A DNA stretch of 64,000 nt from an uncultured Clostridia bacterium (GTDB lineage Bacteria; Bacillota; Clostridia; Oscillospirales; Ruminococcaceae). The position numbers and the translations under genes are program-made. How positions within the stretch are numbered: the first letter of the stretch is position 1; each line of letters starts with the position of its first letter. Below are positions 33,742-42,413 of the stretch, piece after piece. The notes beneath the pieces were generated by a model that was given only the letters and a program-made list of their open reading frames with translations, searched no databases and was not told the DNA's origin. The stretch is taken from positions 1 through 64,000 of the forward strand of contig CANQCL010000001.1 in assembly GCA_947589215.1 (NCBI GenBank), in the 5' to 3' direction.

Positions 33742-33774
33742 AAGTGCGTTACCCCCTAACGCACTTATATTTTT
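33742..33774 (+). terminator. Terminator-like hairpin between feoA and feoB
   Basis: AAGTGCGTTA (33742-33751) pairs with TAACGCACTT (33757-33766) around CCCCC, followed by ATATTTTT. It would lower feoB relative to feoA unless read through. Confidence 0.7.
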
Positions 33775-33809
33775 ACATAAATGATTGCTCTCACAAAGGA
33801 GGAGTTTCT

Positions 33810-35720
33810 ATGACTCAAAATAAAACGAATGATATTTTACAAGGTCATGAAAATACAAACGACAGCAAAAAAATAATAGCGCTTGCAGGAAATCCCAATG
33901 TTGGTAAATCAACAATTTTCAATGCACTTACAGGGCTTAACCAGCATACAGGCAACTGGACCGGAAAAACCGTATCAAACGCAGTAGGAAAATACACATA
34001 TAACGGCAAAACCTACGAGCTTGTTGATCTGCCAGGTACATATTCGCTTTTTGCAGGTTCGGCTGAGGAGGAGGTCGCAAGGGACTATATAGAAAGCGGC
34101 GAGCCCGACGCAGTTATCATCGTCTGCGATGCGACCTGTCTGGAGAGAAACTTAAACCTCACTTTACAGATAATCAACATTTCAAGCCGTGTGATTTTAT
34201 GCGTAAACCTTATGGACGAGGCTGAGAAAAAAGGTATAACAATTGATTGCGACGAACTGTCGCTTCAACTGGGTTGCGAGGTGGTAAGCGTAGTTGCCAG
34301 AAGTGAAAAAGGGCTAGAAGAACTAAAAGCAAAGGCAGAAGACGTTTGCGAGTCCCCTCCTCAGAAATTCTTAAAAAGGATAGATTTCAGCGATTGTAAA
34401 ACCGAAGAGGATCGCACAGAAAAATACGTTTCCGCCGGCGAAGAAATTGCAAAAAAGTGCGTTATATTTAACAAAAAGCATTACGACAAGCGTGACAGGA
34501 TACTCGACAAAATATTTACCTCACGGCTCACAGGAATACCTATAATGCTTCTACTTTTAGGCGGTATATTCTGGCTCACAATAGTAGGTGCAAACTATCC
34601 GTCGGAGATGTTATCAAAGCTTTTTAACTTTATGCAAACATATATTTCTTCTTTTTTTGAATACATAAATGCGCCGTTATGGCTAAGCGGTATTTTAGTT
34701 GACGGAGTATATAAGACCGTCACCTGGGTGGTTTCTGTAATGCTTCCGCCTATGGCTATTTTCTTTCCTCTTTTCACATTGCTTGAGGACTTTGGATATC
34801 TTCCCAGAGTGGCGTTTAACTTAGACAAATTCTTTAGAAAATCAGGCGCAGACGGCAAAGCCGCACTCACAATGTGTATGGGATTTGGATGCAATGCCTG
34901 TGGGGTTATTGGATGCCGAATAATCTCATCTCCCAGAGAACGCATTATAGCAATGCTTACAAACTCTTTTGTTCCCTGCAACGGACGTTTCCCAACGCTC
35001 ATTGCAATTATAACTATGTTTCTTATAGGCGGAGTAAGCTCGTCATTGGGGAATTCTCTGTTATGCGCATTGGTTCTTTTGCTTGTGATAGTTCTCGGAG
35101 TTATTATTACGCTCACAGCCTCTAGATTTCTTTCAAAAACAGTATTAAAAGGAGAATCTACCTGCTTTGCTCTTGAACTACCCCCTTACCGCCGACCTCA
35201 GATAGGGAAGGTAATAATACGTTCCATACTTGACAGAACACTGTTTGTTTTAGGGCGAGCTGTAACTGTCGCTGTTCCGGCAGGAGCGATCATATGGATT
35301 TTTGCTAATGTTAACATAGGTGACAACACCTTGATAAATGCTGTTTCCGGCTTTCTCGACCCGTTTGCTTCATTAATAGGTTTAGACGGTATAATTCTGC
35401 TTGCATTTATTCTGGGTTTTCCCGCAAACGAAATAGTTTTCCCGATAATACTTATGGCGTATTTATCACAGGGCTCGCTTATTGAATACGAAAGCCTTTC
35501 TCAGCTGCACGATCTTCTGCTTGCCAACGGCTGGACCGTTACCACTGCAATATGCACAATGCTCTTCTCGCTCTGCCACTTCCCATGCTCGACAACTATG
35601 ATTTCAATTTATAAGGAAACTAAGAGCAAAAAGTACACGGCGATAGCGTTTTTGCTTCCTCTCTGCATTGGAATACTGATTTGCTTTATTGTAAAAAATC
35701 TGTTATCGCTTGTGCTATAA
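33810..35720 (+). CDS. feoB: FeoB, ferrous iron transporter
   Basis: ATG 33810 follows AAAGGAGGAG, so I reject the longer frame starting at 33744. The product is 636 residues. The N-terminal GTPase has G1 GNPNVGKST (about 27), G3 DLPGT and G4 NLMDEA. The C-terminal part has about eight to ten membrane helices with two Gate-type domains, including MCMGFGCNACGV and LCHFPCSTTM, whose cysteines line the metal pathway. It is shorter than the about 770 residues of E. coli FeoB, as in many Firmicutes. It imports Fe(II) at the cytoplasmic membrane. Confidence 0.95.
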   Translation: MTQNKTNDILQGHENTNDSKKIIALAGNPNVGKSTIFNALTGLNQHTGNWTGKTVSNAVGKYTYNGKTYELVDLPGTYSLFAGSAEEEVARDYIESGEPDAVIIVCDATCLERNLNLTLQIINISSRVILCVNLMDEAEKKGITIDCDELSLQLGCEVVSVVARSEKGLEELKAKAEDVCESPPQKFLKRIDFSDCKTEEDRTEKYVSAGEEIAKKCVIFNKKHYDKRDRILDKIFTSRLTGIPIMLLLLGGIFWLTIVGANYPSEMLSKLFNFMQTYISSFFEYINAPLWLSGILVDGVYKTVTWVVSVMLPPMAIFFPLFTLLEDFGYLPRVAFNLDKFFRKSGADGKAALTMCMGFGCNACGVIGCRIISSPRERIIAMLTNSFVPCNGRFPTLIAIITMFLIGGVSSSLGNSLLCALVLLLVIVLGVIITLTASRFLSKTVLKGESTCFALELPPYRRPQIGKVIIRSILDRTLFVLGRAVTVAVPAGAIIWIFANVNIGDNTLINAVSGFLDPFASLIGLDGIILLAFILGFPANEIVFPIILMAYLSQGSLIEYESLSQLHDLLLANGWTVTTAICTMLFSLCHFPCSTTMISIYKETKSKKYTAIAFLLPLCIGILICFIVKNLLSLVL

Positions 35721-36334: not shown

Positions 36335-38182
36335 TTAATGCTTTACATAATAAAGAGGATTAAGTCTTTTCTTTATTTTAGCAGAAGGGTTATCCTGTAC
36401 CCTAAATTCAAAGTGAAGATGCGGACCTGTTGAATAACCGGTAGAGCCGACAGTTCCCAGCATCTGACCTGATGATATGTACTGTCCTACCTTGACTTTA
36501 ACGCTTGTCATATGACCGTAGATAACTCGCAGAATTATCTTTTTCCCATCAATCTTAAACGTGCTTCTAACAACAACATAATTTCCAAAGCCGCCTCCGC
36601 AGCCGCACGATCTTGTTTTACCGTAGTTATGCTTACAGCCCTTATTTATTGAATCTACTATTCCGCCTTTGGTAGCGATTATTTTTGCACCCTTTATACT
36701 TTTTCCGTTTGAAGCAATATCAGTACCCGAGTGTTTACCCGAAGCGTACATACCCGACTTATTATTATATTTCTGAGATATATAGTAAAATCCCGGTACA
36801 GGCCATCTGAACGACAATGTAAGAACAGATTTTTTAGCCGACATCTTTCCTTTTAAGGTCTTACCGTTTAGCTGTTTATAAGCAATTACTTTGTACTTAT
36901 ATGTTTTTGATTTTTTTAGGTTTTTATTTGTATATGTAAACTTTGTATTACCCGCTATTTTAGCGATCCTTACATACTTTTTAGAATTCTTTTTATATCT
37001 GTATATAATATAACCGCTTGCTCCGTTGATTTTTTTCCATCTTATCTGAACAGAGTGATTCTTGCCTATCAACTGAACGATTTTAGAGTCATCCGGAACA
37101 GTCATCGTTTCTAGAACATTGGCTGATAAATTTGATATATAATCTACTCCGTCAACTGTAAGATAAGTCGCTATTTTAAAGTTATATATTTCTCCTGCGG
37201 TAAGTCCTTTAACAGTGCAATGCAAAGTATTAGAATCATTAATCGTTTTCTTTAAAACATACTTCTTAACCGAGAAGTCGTAAACATATATTTTATAACC
37301 TGTAATTCCGCCCGCCATTGTCCAATCCAGTCTTAGTGACGTCTTTTTAGGGTTGCTGTACGATATAAGACCGTTAGCTTTAGGAATTATCTTAAATTCA
37401 ATAACTCTTACCCCTGTTACGTTTTCAATTCCCGTTACAGTTATCGTCGCTGTTCCTATGTTTATATTGTTTGAATAGCTTAGCGTATAGTCCTTTCCCA
37501 ATACAAGTTTATAGTCCTCTATTTTGGCTAATATGTCAGGCGTAACAGCACTGCCTGTGTATGTTACGTTTTCAACTGAAACATTTACATCAAAATTTAT
37601 GTCAGCCGCATAAATTACAAATTCAAGAGTTTTCTCCCCTGTGAAATTTCCAATTCCTTTGACTGTCACCGTAGCTGTACCGACATTGATGTTATTAGTA
37701 TAACTTAAAGTATAGTCTATGTCCTTAACTAATTTATAATCTTCATACTCAGCGTTAACATCAGGGGTAACTTCTACACCTTTATATGTATAATTCGGTA
37801 TTTCAGATATTTCGACATCATTTATATTTGTTGGATATTTAACATTTACCTCGCAATAAACCGGCTCTGCAGTTCCGTCCGACGTTGATATAACTATCCT
37901 TGTGCTGCCGCTATCTAATGCCGTAACCAGTCCCTTTTCATCGACAGTACAAATGCTTTCATTCTCACTTTTATAATTCAGAGTACCTCCAGAAGAAATT
38001 TTTGCATCTATTTGAGCAGTTTGTCCGATAGTCAGATTAAAAACACTCTTAGAGACTTCAATCTCGTTTTCTGCTGCATATGATGTAATTGCAACAGGAA
38101 TAATTACGCAAATCAAAGCTATAAATAACGTCATTAATGCTGTTTTAATGATCTTGTTGTCGAAATCTTTATGTATATTCAT
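36335..38182 (-). CDS. Secreted M23 peptidase with Ig-like and Fn3 domains
   Basis: This 615-residue exported protein has a signal segment (about 14-34). Next come a Big_2-type domain (about 37-115), two similar beta domains (about 117-190 and 195-268; both contain DYTLSY.NNIN.GTAT), two Fn3 domains (about 272-355 and 362-455), and a C-terminal LytM/M23 peptidase (about 470-612). The active-site residues are intact: HSGTD, YGHM and HLHFE. It should cleave peptidoglycan peptide bridges outside the cell. The extra domains likely bind wall or carbohydrate. It contrasts with the degenerate M23 domain at 18,870. Confidence 0.88.
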   Translation of the reverse strand: MNIHKDFDNKIIKTALMTLFIALICVIIPVAITSYAAENEIEVSKSVFNLTIGQTAQIDAKISSGGTLNYKSENESICTVDEKGLVTALDSGSTRIVISTSDGTAEPVYCEVNVKYPTNINDVEISEIPNYTYKGVEVTPDVNAEYEDYKLVKDIDYTLSYTNNINVGTATVTVKGIGNFTGEKTLEFVIYAADINFDVNVSVENVTYTGSAVTPDILAKIEDYKLVLGKDYTLSYSNNINIGTATITVTGIENVTGVRVIEFKIIPKANGLISYSNPKKTSLRLDWTMAGGITGYKIYVYDFSVKKYVLKKTINDSNTLHCTVKGLTAGEIYNFKIATYLTVDGVDYISNLSANVLETMTVPDDSKIVQLIGKNHSVQIRWKKINGASGYIIYRYKKNSKKYVRIAKIAGNTKFTYTNKNLKKSKTYKYKVIAYKQLNGKTLKGKMSAKKSVLTLSFRWPVPGFYYISQKYNNKSGMYASGKHSGTDIASNGKSIKGAKIIATKGGIVDSINKGCKHNYGKTRSCGCGGGFGNYVVVRSTFKIDGKKIILRVIYGHMTSVKVKVGQYISSGQMLGTVGSTGYSTGPHLHFEFRVQDNPSAKIKKRLNPLYYVKH

Positions 38183-39537: not shown

Positions 39538-39572
39538 AAAAGAACCCCTGCAAACAGCTTTACAGAAGTCCT
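39538..39572 (-). terminator. Terminator after copA
   Basis: On the minus strand GGACTTCTGT and GCAGGGGTTC pair with several G-U pairs, followed by TTTTTT. It is weaker than the other terminators here. Confidence 0.5.
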
Positions 39573-39595
39573 TTAAGAGATTGTTTTATTTTCAC

Positions 39596-39817
39596 TTATT
39601 TTTCACTTGCTTTGTAGCCTGCGTCCTCTACCGCTTTAATAAGCGTTTGAATATCAACGTCCTTTGACAGGTTGATATACGCCAATCCTTTTTTCAGGTT
39701 TACCTCAGCCTTAACTCCGTCAATGGCGTTTAACGCTGACTCAACAGTTCCGGAGCAGTGAGAACAGCTCATACCCTCAACCTTTAATGTTACATCGCAC
39801 TTTACCTTTCCAAACAT
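39596..39817 (-). CDS. copZ: Possible internal CopZ-like copper chaperone
   Basis: Within copA, minus-strand AAAGGAGGACAAAGATATG puts AGGAGG eight bases ahead of an in-frame ATG at 39,817. The 73-residue product is a complete HMA domain with MSCSHC, the size of a normal CopZ. It could therefore be made both as the tail of CopA and as a free chaperone. Alternatively, copZ was fused by loss of a stop codon, and the site is a relic. Confidence 0.55.
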   Translation of the reverse strand: MFGKVKCDVTLKVEGMSCSHCSGTVESALNAIDGVKAEVNLKKGLAYINLSKDVDIQTLIKAVEDAGYKASEK

Positions 39818-42115
39818 ATCTTTGTCCTCCTTTGTATTATTAAGCCCCTTATCAGAGCTTTTATTTAGATTTTTAGGCTTGAAAAATCTAAGCCTTAATG
39901 CGTTTGTTACAACGCATACGCTGCTTAAGCTCATCGCCGCCGCTGCGAGCATTGGCGACAGCTTTATGCTAAACGCACTATAGAAAACCCCTGCCGCTAT
40001 CGGTATACCTACTGTGTTGTAGAAAAACGCCCAAAACAGATTTTCCTTTATGTTTTTAATGACTGCCTTGCTCAAATCAATAGCTGTACAAACGTCAAAA
40101 ATATCATTTTTCATCAAAACAACATCAGCGCTCTCAATGGCAATATCAACGCCAGCGCCTATCGCAATTCCTACGTCCGCCCTTGCAAGCGCAGGAGCGT
40201 CGTTGATACCGTCGCCCACCATAGCAACCTTGTTTCCGCTTTCTTGAATAGAGGCAACAACACCTTCTTTTTCCTGCGGAAGCACGTTTGCAATTACATT
40301 ATCAATACCCAGCTTTTTTCTGACAGTCTCGGCAGTATTTTTGTTGTCGCCTGTAAGCATTGTGACCCTTACTCCGCTTTTTTTCAAAAGTTTAACAGCG
40401 TCATAGCTTGTCGACTTTACCTTATCAGCGACTGCAATAATACCAACAGCCTTATTTTCATCAGCGACTATCAAAGGAGTTTTTCCCTCAAGAGATAAGC
40501 TTTGTAAATCATTTTCTACATCTTCATAGTCAATATTATTTGCTTTGATGTAAGCAGAATTACCTATATAATATCCTTTTCCGTCAACTTCTCCGAAAAC
40601 GCCTTTGCCGAACTCCGCTTTAAAACCGTTAACGTTAAGAAATGAAAGTTCTTGCCTTTCAAATTCTCTTACCACAGCGTCCGCAAGAGGATGCTCGCTC
40701 ATATTTTCAATGCTTCCTGCAATCTGTACAAGCGTCTTTTCATCAAGGCCATTCGCAATAATATCAGTAACTCCGGGTTTCCCCTCAGTCAGCGTTCCCG
40801 TCTTGTCAAGAACAACGTCTGTTACGTTGTGAAGAGCCTCTAAAGCCTCTCCCGATTTTATTAGAATACCGTTCTGCGCTGATTTTCCTGTTCCCACCAT
40901 AATTGCAACAGGAGTTGCAAGACCTAACGCGCATGGACAGGAAACCACCAGAACCGAAATAGCTATACTCATAGCAAACTCAAAGCTTGCTCCGCAGATC
41001 AGCCATACAATTAACGCAATAATTGCAATAGCTATCACAATGGGAACAAAAATTCCCGACACTTTATCCGCTATTTTTGCAATAGGCGCTTTTGATGAGG
41101 ACGCCTCCTCAACAAGCTTGATTATCTGAGAAAGAGTCGTATTCTCGCCTACTCTTGTAGCTTTGTATTTTAAATATCCGCTGCTTAGCATCGTAGCTGA
41201 TATAACGCTTTCCCCTGCCGTTTTAGAAACAGGCACGCTCTCCCCTGTAATAGCAGACTGGTCAAGACTTCCCTCGCCCTCTATTATCTCGCCGTCAACA
41301 GCAATTCTCTCTCCTGCTTTGGCTAATACTATATCTCCCTCACGAATATCCTCAACTAAAATTTCGGTTTCTTTGCCGTCTTTTATTACCGTTGCCGTTT
41401 CGGGAGCAAGATTCAAAAGCCTGTCTATAGCCTCGCTGGTTTTAGATTTAGACCGTGTCTCAAGATATTTTCCGACCGTTATAAGCGTAAGTATTGTAGC
41501 CGCAGATTCAAAATACAGATCCATATGGAATCTTTCCACAGTTTCCATATCGCCGATTTTTAACCCTACAGCTATTCGGATTATCGCATATAAGCCGTAT
41601 AAGAAAGCTGACGCCGAACCTATAGCTATAAGACTGTCCATATTAGGAGCGCCCTTAAAAAGGTTTTTAAATCCTACTGTATAGTATTTATAGTTTATTA
41701 TCATTATCGGTATACAAAAAACAAGCTGTATCAATGCAAAATTAAGAGCGTTTCCGGCACCCATAAATATTGAAGGTATAGGAAGTCCCAGCATATGCCC
41801 CATAGAAATATACATAAGTGGAATTAAAAGACAAACTGAGGAAATGAGCCTTTTAAGCATTGTTTTTTCAGCTTCGCTTTTTACGCCTGATGTTATGCTG
41901 CTTTTTGCGTCAAAAAGATTAGCGCCGTAACCTGCCTCCTTGACAGCCGCTATAATATCATCTACACTAAGGCTGTCGTCATATTCCGCCGTCATAGAAT
42001 TTGTAAGCAAATTGACAGAAACGCTTTTTATGCCGTCAAGCTTTGAAACTGCCCTCTCAACCCTTGCCGAGCAAGCCGAACAAGTCATTCCCGAAATGGC
42101 AAATTTATTTTTCAT
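39596..42115 (-). CDS. copA: CopA-type copper-exporting P1B ATPase with fused CopZ domain
   Basis: This 839-residue P-type ATPase has an N-terminal HMA domain (MTCSAC, about 8-13), about eight membrane helices, the metal-site motif SCPCALG (about 393), the phosphorylation motif DKTGT (about 437) and the hinge GDGIND (about 637). It pumps Cu(I) out of the cell. Unusually, after helix eight it has a linker (SDKGLNNTKEDKD) and then a second HMA domain with MSCSHC (about 767-839). The last part has its own ribosome site and start codon. The start follows AAGGGGGAGGAAGCC. No copper repressor gene is nearby. Confidence 0.93.
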   Translation of the reverse strand: MKNKFAISGMTCSACSARVERAVSKLDGIKSVSVNLLTNSMTAEYDDSLSVDDIIAAVKEAGYGANLFDAKSSITSGVKSEAEKTMLKRLISSVCLLIPLMYISMGHMLGLPIPSIFMGAGNALNFALIQLVFCIPIMIINYKYYTVGFKNLFKGAPNMDSLIAIGSASAFLYGLYAIIRIAVGLKIGDMETVERFHMDLYFESAATILTLITVGKYLETRSKSKTSEAIDRLLNLAPETATVIKDGKETEILVEDIREGDIVLAKAGERIAVDGEIIEGEGSLDQSAITGESVPVSKTAGESVISATMLSSGYLKYKATRVGENTTLSQIIKLVEEASSSKAPIAKIADKVSGIFVPIVIAIAIIALIVWLICGASFEFAMSIAISVLVVSCPCALGLATPVAIMVGTGKSAQNGILIKSGEALEALHNVTDVVLDKTGTLTEGKPGVTDIIANGLDEKTLVQIAGSIENMSEHPLADAVVREFERQELSFLNVNGFKAEFGKGVFGEVDGKGYYIGNSAYIKANNIDYEDVENDLQSLSLEGKTPLIVADENKAVGIIAVADKVKSTSYDAVKLLKKSGVRVTMLTGDNKNTAETVRKKLGIDNVIANVLPQEKEGVVASIQESGNKVAMVGDGINDAPALARADVGIAIGAGVDIAIESADVVLMKNDIFDVCTAIDLSKAVIKNIKENLFWAFFYNTVGIPIAAGVFYSAFSIKLSPMLAAAAMSLSSVCVVTNALRLRFFKPKNLNKSSDKGLNNTKEDKDMFGKVKCDVTLKVEGMSCSHCSGTVESALNAIDGVKAEVNLKKGLAYINLSKDVDIQTLIKAVEDAGYKASEK

Positions 42116-42413
42116 AAACAGGCTTCCTCCCCCTTGAAATCTCTGTAAATCATAAACAATTAGTTGTTGCTAATTCATATTATACTACTATGATAAATCA
42201 ATGTCAAATTTTAAGCCTAAAATAACATCAGTATTTATAGTATATGTAAACAATACAAAAAAATCAAACGCATATATATTTATTCAAAATATATTGCAGT
42301 TTGTTTTTGGTTAATTTCAACTAAGCGGTTAGTTATAAATTGTTTAAAGTTACAAAAATTATTTTTTTAAGGTTATTCTGTGACTTGTTTTGTTAAATTT
42401 GAGCAAAAATTCA

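Follow-up and report, generated by a model that had tools for sequence, protein, structure and literature searches.

The 64,000-nucleotide stretch of DNA analysed here (the window; positions 1 to 64,000 of contig CANQCL010000001.1, assembly GCA_947589215.1, from an uncultured Clostridia bacterium) carries on its minus strand a copA gene (39596..42115) of 839 codons, encoding a P1B-type Cu(I)-exporting ATPase of 839 residues. The copper-type P1B ATPase core passes the curated model ATPase-IB1_Cu (TIGR01511) with 595.8 bits against a cut-off of 397. The pump has two Pfam HMA domains, an N-terminal one with the motif GMTCSAC (CSAC type; 41927..42103, minus strand) and a C-terminal one with GMSCSHC (CSHC type; 39611..39790, minus strand). 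Before the C-terminal domain, an internal Shine-Dalgarno (SD) sequence, AGGAGG (39826..39831, minus strand), is followed after the 8-nt spacer ACAAAGAT by an ATG in the copA frame (39815..39817, minus strand), and both elements are kept in relatives. This ATG is the proposed start of a free CopZ-like HMA protein, whose open reading frame (39596..39817, minus strand) reads MFGKVKCDVTLKVEGMSCSHC...ASEK*, spans 73 residues and ends at the stop codon of copA. The preliminary description of this DNA had pointed to a perfect internal AGGAGG-8-ATG and a 73-residue product; the site and the length of the frame are confirmed, with the SD at 39831-39826, the start codon at 39817-39815 and 73 codons from there to the shared stop. 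The gene thus combines a properly spaced SD with a start codon in the host frame, as in-frame internal-start genes do.

Sites of the form AGGAGG-N4-10-ATG occur six times in the window compared with 1.55 expected, and none of 100 shuffles reaches six. Each of the other five precedes an open frame of 58-636 codons, indicating that the combination marks gene starts in this genome. Conservation of the internal site was followed in three sets of relatives. The first, the family set, came from 198 searched genomes, 181 of which have copA relatives, and the DNA of 108 genes whose products have a C-terminal HMA domain was examined. The second was retrieved by TM8 motifs and consists of 80 loci for which the organism is named, some of them shared with the first, and the third came from a phylum-wide search; the non-redundant set comprises 229 fused copA genes from many Bacillota genera and some other lineages. 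An ATG is present at the domain boundary in 88 of the 108 family genes, usually 11 codons before the first Cys of CxxC. GGAG or GAGG stands at SD distance from 78 of these 88 ATGs, and all 88 have an SD-like core, compared with GGAG/GAGG before 93 of 2118 other ATG codons (4.4%) in the same open reading frames. An SD core was likewise found in 68 of the 71 genes of the second set that have the start codon, which spans records labelled Lachnospiraceae, Oscillospiraceae, Selenomonadaceae, Treponema, Spirochaetales and Elusimicrobiales. The sole record labelled Bacteroidetes in that set (L125) is a fused copA with a boundary ATG and no SD, possibly since Bacteroidetes-type bacteria rarely use SD sequences. 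In the non-redundant set the ATG is kept in 201 genes, 192 of which have the SD core (~84% of 229). The linker is otherwise hypervariable and has lost similarity, while the SD and the ATG persist across genera.

The predicted 73-residue product has the makings of a CopZ, with about 70 residues and one complete HMA domain (Pfam HMA positions 1-62 of 62, 54.7 bits). Its GMSCSHC fits the chaperone-type motif GMxCxHC, unlike the CxAC/CxSC motif of the pump's own domain. The claim that the product equals a stand-alone CopZ therefore holds in part: the domain and the CxHC motif are as expected and the nearest curated models are CopZ families, yet the scores stay below the NCBIfam cut-offs. Related solved structures include CopZ chaperones, e.g. 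6ff2 and 2qif. The source genome (99.99% complete) has three HMA matches, two in copA and one in a 704-codon open reading frame, and HMA and motif searches of it found no stand-alone CopZ. Among the start-bearing fused genes, the C-terminal HMA domain is of the CxHC type in 187 of 198, whereas the N-terminal one has CxAC or CxSC in 181 of 184 and CxHC in none of the 184. Thus, in this set, the tail resembles CopZ rather than a duplicated pump domain.

These comparisons suggest that copA is an in-frame copA-copZ fusion that has retained the ribosome-binding site of copZ and yields both the pump and a free CopZ-like chaperone from one gene by internal initiation, a reading to which we assign a probability of roughly 0.87. 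In-frame fusion of an ancestral copA-copZ pair would have kept the ribosome-binding site of copZ in place. Ribosomes starting at the first ATG would produce the 839-residue copper pump with its tethered C-terminal CopZ-like domain, whereas a 30S subunit binding the internal AGGAGG on the same message may initiate at the internal ATG and release the free 73-residue protein, which would bind Cu(I) and deliver it to CopA. The internal initiation of a free CopZ put forward in the preliminary description is thus supported by the comparison, given the SD and ATG in 192 of 229 fused genes. Alternatively, the free protein could be translated from a message of its own, arising at a separate internal promoter or by mRNA processing, and not by initiation on the full-length one. 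For Escherichia coli copA, Drees et al. 2017 (cited in PMC7558416) name differential transcript formation alongside frameshifting in their title, and weak promoter-like matches lie upstream of the internal start within copA. However, a consensus scan of the window found no good promoter-like site close upstream on the same strand, the nearest matching 9 of 12 positions ~480 nt away. The promoter-like TTGACA-17-TATAAT upstream of copA itself (42179..42207, minus strand) matches 12 of 12, and a terminator-like hairpin with a T run lies just 3' of the shared stop codon (39539..39574, minus strand); both are consensus matches only, and terminator-like sites in the window do not exceed their count in shuffles. 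We consider a separate transcript unlikely as the sole source. Such a transcript, whether from an internal promoter or from processing, still relies on the same internal start, and it could exist alongside internal initiation.

Another possibility is that the SD and the ATG play no part in translation and are by-products of a conserved Met and a linker rich in Lys and Glu. Such linkers do yield SD-like strings, and synonymous recoding of seven linker codons with each gene's codon usage still gave them in a mean of 29 of 88 genes; however, the maximum in 200 draws was 39, compared with the 78 observed. The SD is also kept across codon registers that encode different residues, e.g. AAA-GGA-GAA (KGE) or AAG-GAG-GAA (KEE), with KEE/KEN and other residues encoded. 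Each of the three codon phases is represented (104, 60 and 5 genes), and the phase changes at least 30 times on a FastTree tree of the pump core. Moreover, loss of the ATG is mostly accompanied by loss of the SD: the core is present in 192 of 201 non-redundant genes with the ATG vs. 9 of 28 without it (Fisher 1e-14). An independent-pairs test of this coupling on the tree gave 8 pairs and a median p of 0.125. A by-product is accordingly very improbable.

Several further features point to selection on a start. Where the ATG lies further from the domain (-17 in the window's genus and in L115, -12 to -16 elsewhere), the SD is shifted along with it. Four genes (L042, L239, L261 and L262) carry two to four C-terminal HMA domains, so that the tail resembles an ordinary metal-binding array, and in these a good ATG and a well-placed SD are both absent. 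The region from -15 to +3 around the internal start is less structured than that at other ATGs. Because the SD occurs in three phases, is coupled to the ATG, moves with it, is not well placed in the multi-HMA exceptions and lies in a region of low structure, we read the pattern, from the sequences, as nucleotide-level selection on a start. The conservation of SD and start beyond protein-level constraint is again what in-frame internal-start genes show.

If the internal start supplies CopZ, its distribution can be compared with that of separate CopZ genes. The CopZ-type motif GMxCxHC was sought in whole family genomes, 59 with the internal start and 18 whose fused copA lacks it. A stand-alone CopZ-type gene was found in 8 of the 18 start-lacking genomes (G178, G180, G171, G019, G117, G194, G028 and G055) vs. 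none of the 59 start-bearing ones (Fisher 2e-6, a value from a search chosen after a broader HMA count had failed and thus not from a pre-planned test). Two more start-lacking genomes have a GMMCGMC variant, and the few extra GMxCxHC matches in the 59 start-bearing genomes fall outside PF00403 hits. In the broader count, any short HMA protein over the cut-off was found in 16 of 18 start-lacking vs. 43 of 58 start-bearing genomes (p 0.33), and under a stricter threshold in 12 of 18 vs. 24 of 58 (p 0.10). The lack of a clear link there is explained by the small HMA proteins of the start-bearing genomes, nearly all of which belong to another family, LDLDCANCAAKME...KIEPDC (LDLDCANC...), and the CopZ-type motif was therefore searched instead. 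Two genera hold both states in the predicted combination, g29 (G028, G139) and g90 (G178, G090).

The other family is a widespread small stand-alone HMA-like protein, LDLDCANCAAKME...SVSFMTQKMTIEA...CRKIEPDC, with no GM before CxxC and distinct from CopZ (L278-L300, ~550-base stretches from family genomes). L264 and L299 are small membrane-anchored proteins in which a Cys-rich stretch (CCSGGD/CCGAGGD) precedes an HMA domain. One genome (G065) has two fused copA genes, and the internal start is lacking in both the first and the second (L321, G065:C54).

Unfused relatives give an indication of the origin of the fusion. In most of those in the phylum set, copA ends at a stop codon and copZ starts after a further 21-117 nt, in the frame of copA and in most cases preceded by an SD core; L225-L238 are such neighbours in the phylum set and L019 is a family example, with an SD. 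The fused or unfused state changes only five times on the tree over 246 genes, indicating that the fusion is old. The simplest history, judged from these gene orders, would be an ancient loss of the stop between neighbouring copA and copZ with the ribosome-binding site of copZ kept. Unfused pairs of this kind would also be expected if the site were a vestige of recent copA-copZ fusions that is out of use, a view to which we give little credence: the fusion dates far back, but genera whose linkers have diverged still keep the SD and ATG, and start-bearing genomes have no separate CopZ. It is equally doubtful that the internal SD is a ribosome pause site aiding membrane insertion or domain folding of full-length CopA with no separate protein made, since, although SD-like strings within genes have been proposed to slow ribosomes, pausing requires no ATG at a set distance from the SD, no weakly structured start region and no mutual exclusivity between the site and a separate CopZ gene.

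Some observations weigh against internal initiation of a free CopZ. The ATG is absent from 28 of the 229 fused genes (~12%), and the SD core is absent from 9 of the 201 that have it. The search profile was derived from start-bearing genes, which may have introduced some ascertainment bias. The AT-rich linker accounts for part of the low structure at the internal start. The 73-residue product scores below the CopZ cut-offs (NF047957, 69.4 bits against 85; NF033795, 62.1 against 91). Genes lacking the start are scattered across the pump-core tree, which is poorly resolved and on which the phylogenetic independence of the CopZ association is not demonstrable; the independent-pairs test of start against CopZ had too few supported branches and pairs. 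The preliminary description had proposed a survey of relatives and named the fusion without an internal site as evidence against its claim. The survey bore the claim out in that the fusion is widespread, the internal SD and ATG are mostly conserved and unfused copA-copZ pairs are seen, and went against it in the genes without the ATG. However, the SD is mostly gone from these genes too, and about half of them in the family have a separate CopZ-type gene that is absent from start-bearing genomes; thus, the exceptions behave as the hypothesis of internal initiation predicts.

The proposed arrangement resembles several known systems. E. coli copA gives CopA and CopA(Z) by programmed -1 ribosomal frameshifting, according to PMC7558416, which cites Meydan et al. 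2017 and Drees et al. 2017. As described there, one gene likewise yields a Cu(I) pump and a free HMA chaperone of shared sequence. However, the E. coli chaperone is the N-terminal domain, freed by frameshifting with a slippery site, a pseudoknot and the nascent chain, whereas in the proposal made here the C-terminal domain would be the chaperone, starting from an SD and ATG of its own and ending at the stop codon of copA. The first 600 nt of copA were scanned for E. coli-type -1 frameshifting, and no in-register X_XXY_YYZ slippery heptamer was found there. The arrangement would reach the E. coli outcome by internal initiation from the other end of the gene, as the mirror arrangement of the preliminary description suggests. 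Compared with separate copA-copZ operons, the same two proteins would be made, and the order and the SD directly upstream of copZ are those of most unfused phylum relatives; the differences are that no stop codon separates the genes and that every full-length pump bears a CopZ-like tail. A 2010 study cited in PMC7558416 concerns a Cu-ATPase with a similarly C-terminal metal-binding domain, described there as a tethered pump domain.

Release of a C-terminal product from an internal in-frame start is already established for other genes. Some phage endolysin genes encode two polypeptides each, the short C-terminal one having an internal ribosome-binding site and start codon, as reported in PMC9430671; these are cell-wall enzymes of which the short product can itself form a subunit, whereas here a bacterial pump and a soluble donor chaperone would be made. 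Cas11 is made by internal translation of cas8 or cas10, as described in PMC11899642, and is similarly a small protein with its own gene in other systems that comes from the 3' part of a larger gene via an in-frame internal start; it belongs to the CRISPR interference complex, and the proteins are unrelated to CopA and CopZ. By analogy, copA-copZ would be a further variant. A search of the open literature turned up no earlier publication describing a CopZ made from copA through internal initiation; most subscription papers lay outside the search, and a prior description is possible.

It is likely that copA serves as a dual gene with conserved internal initiation in much of Clostridia and reaching into Negativicutes, Spirochaetota and Elusimicrobiota, as an ancient convergent counterpart of the E. 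coli frameshift at the opposite end of the gene, and that lineages losing the start often have a separate copZ. If so, a large group of gut bacteria obtains its copper chaperone from a gene that annotation lists as a pump alone, and CopZ is therefore missed when their genomes are annotated. It would also be a second, independent and mechanistically different way of obtaining a pump plus a chaperone from one gene, suggesting selection for coupling the two. The site would be among the better-conserved internal in-frame starts of bacterial genes, and its natural loss variants open it to testing.

Two other genes of the window were noted. The plus-strand frame at 33744-35720 encodes an FeoB-like ferrous iron transporter, whose probable start is the ATG at 33810, which follows an AGGAGG, and not the GTG at 33744. 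The minus-strand gene at 36335-38182 encodes a secreted-looking protein of 615 residues with repeats and a C-terminal stretch that resembles M23 peptidases (HLHFEF).
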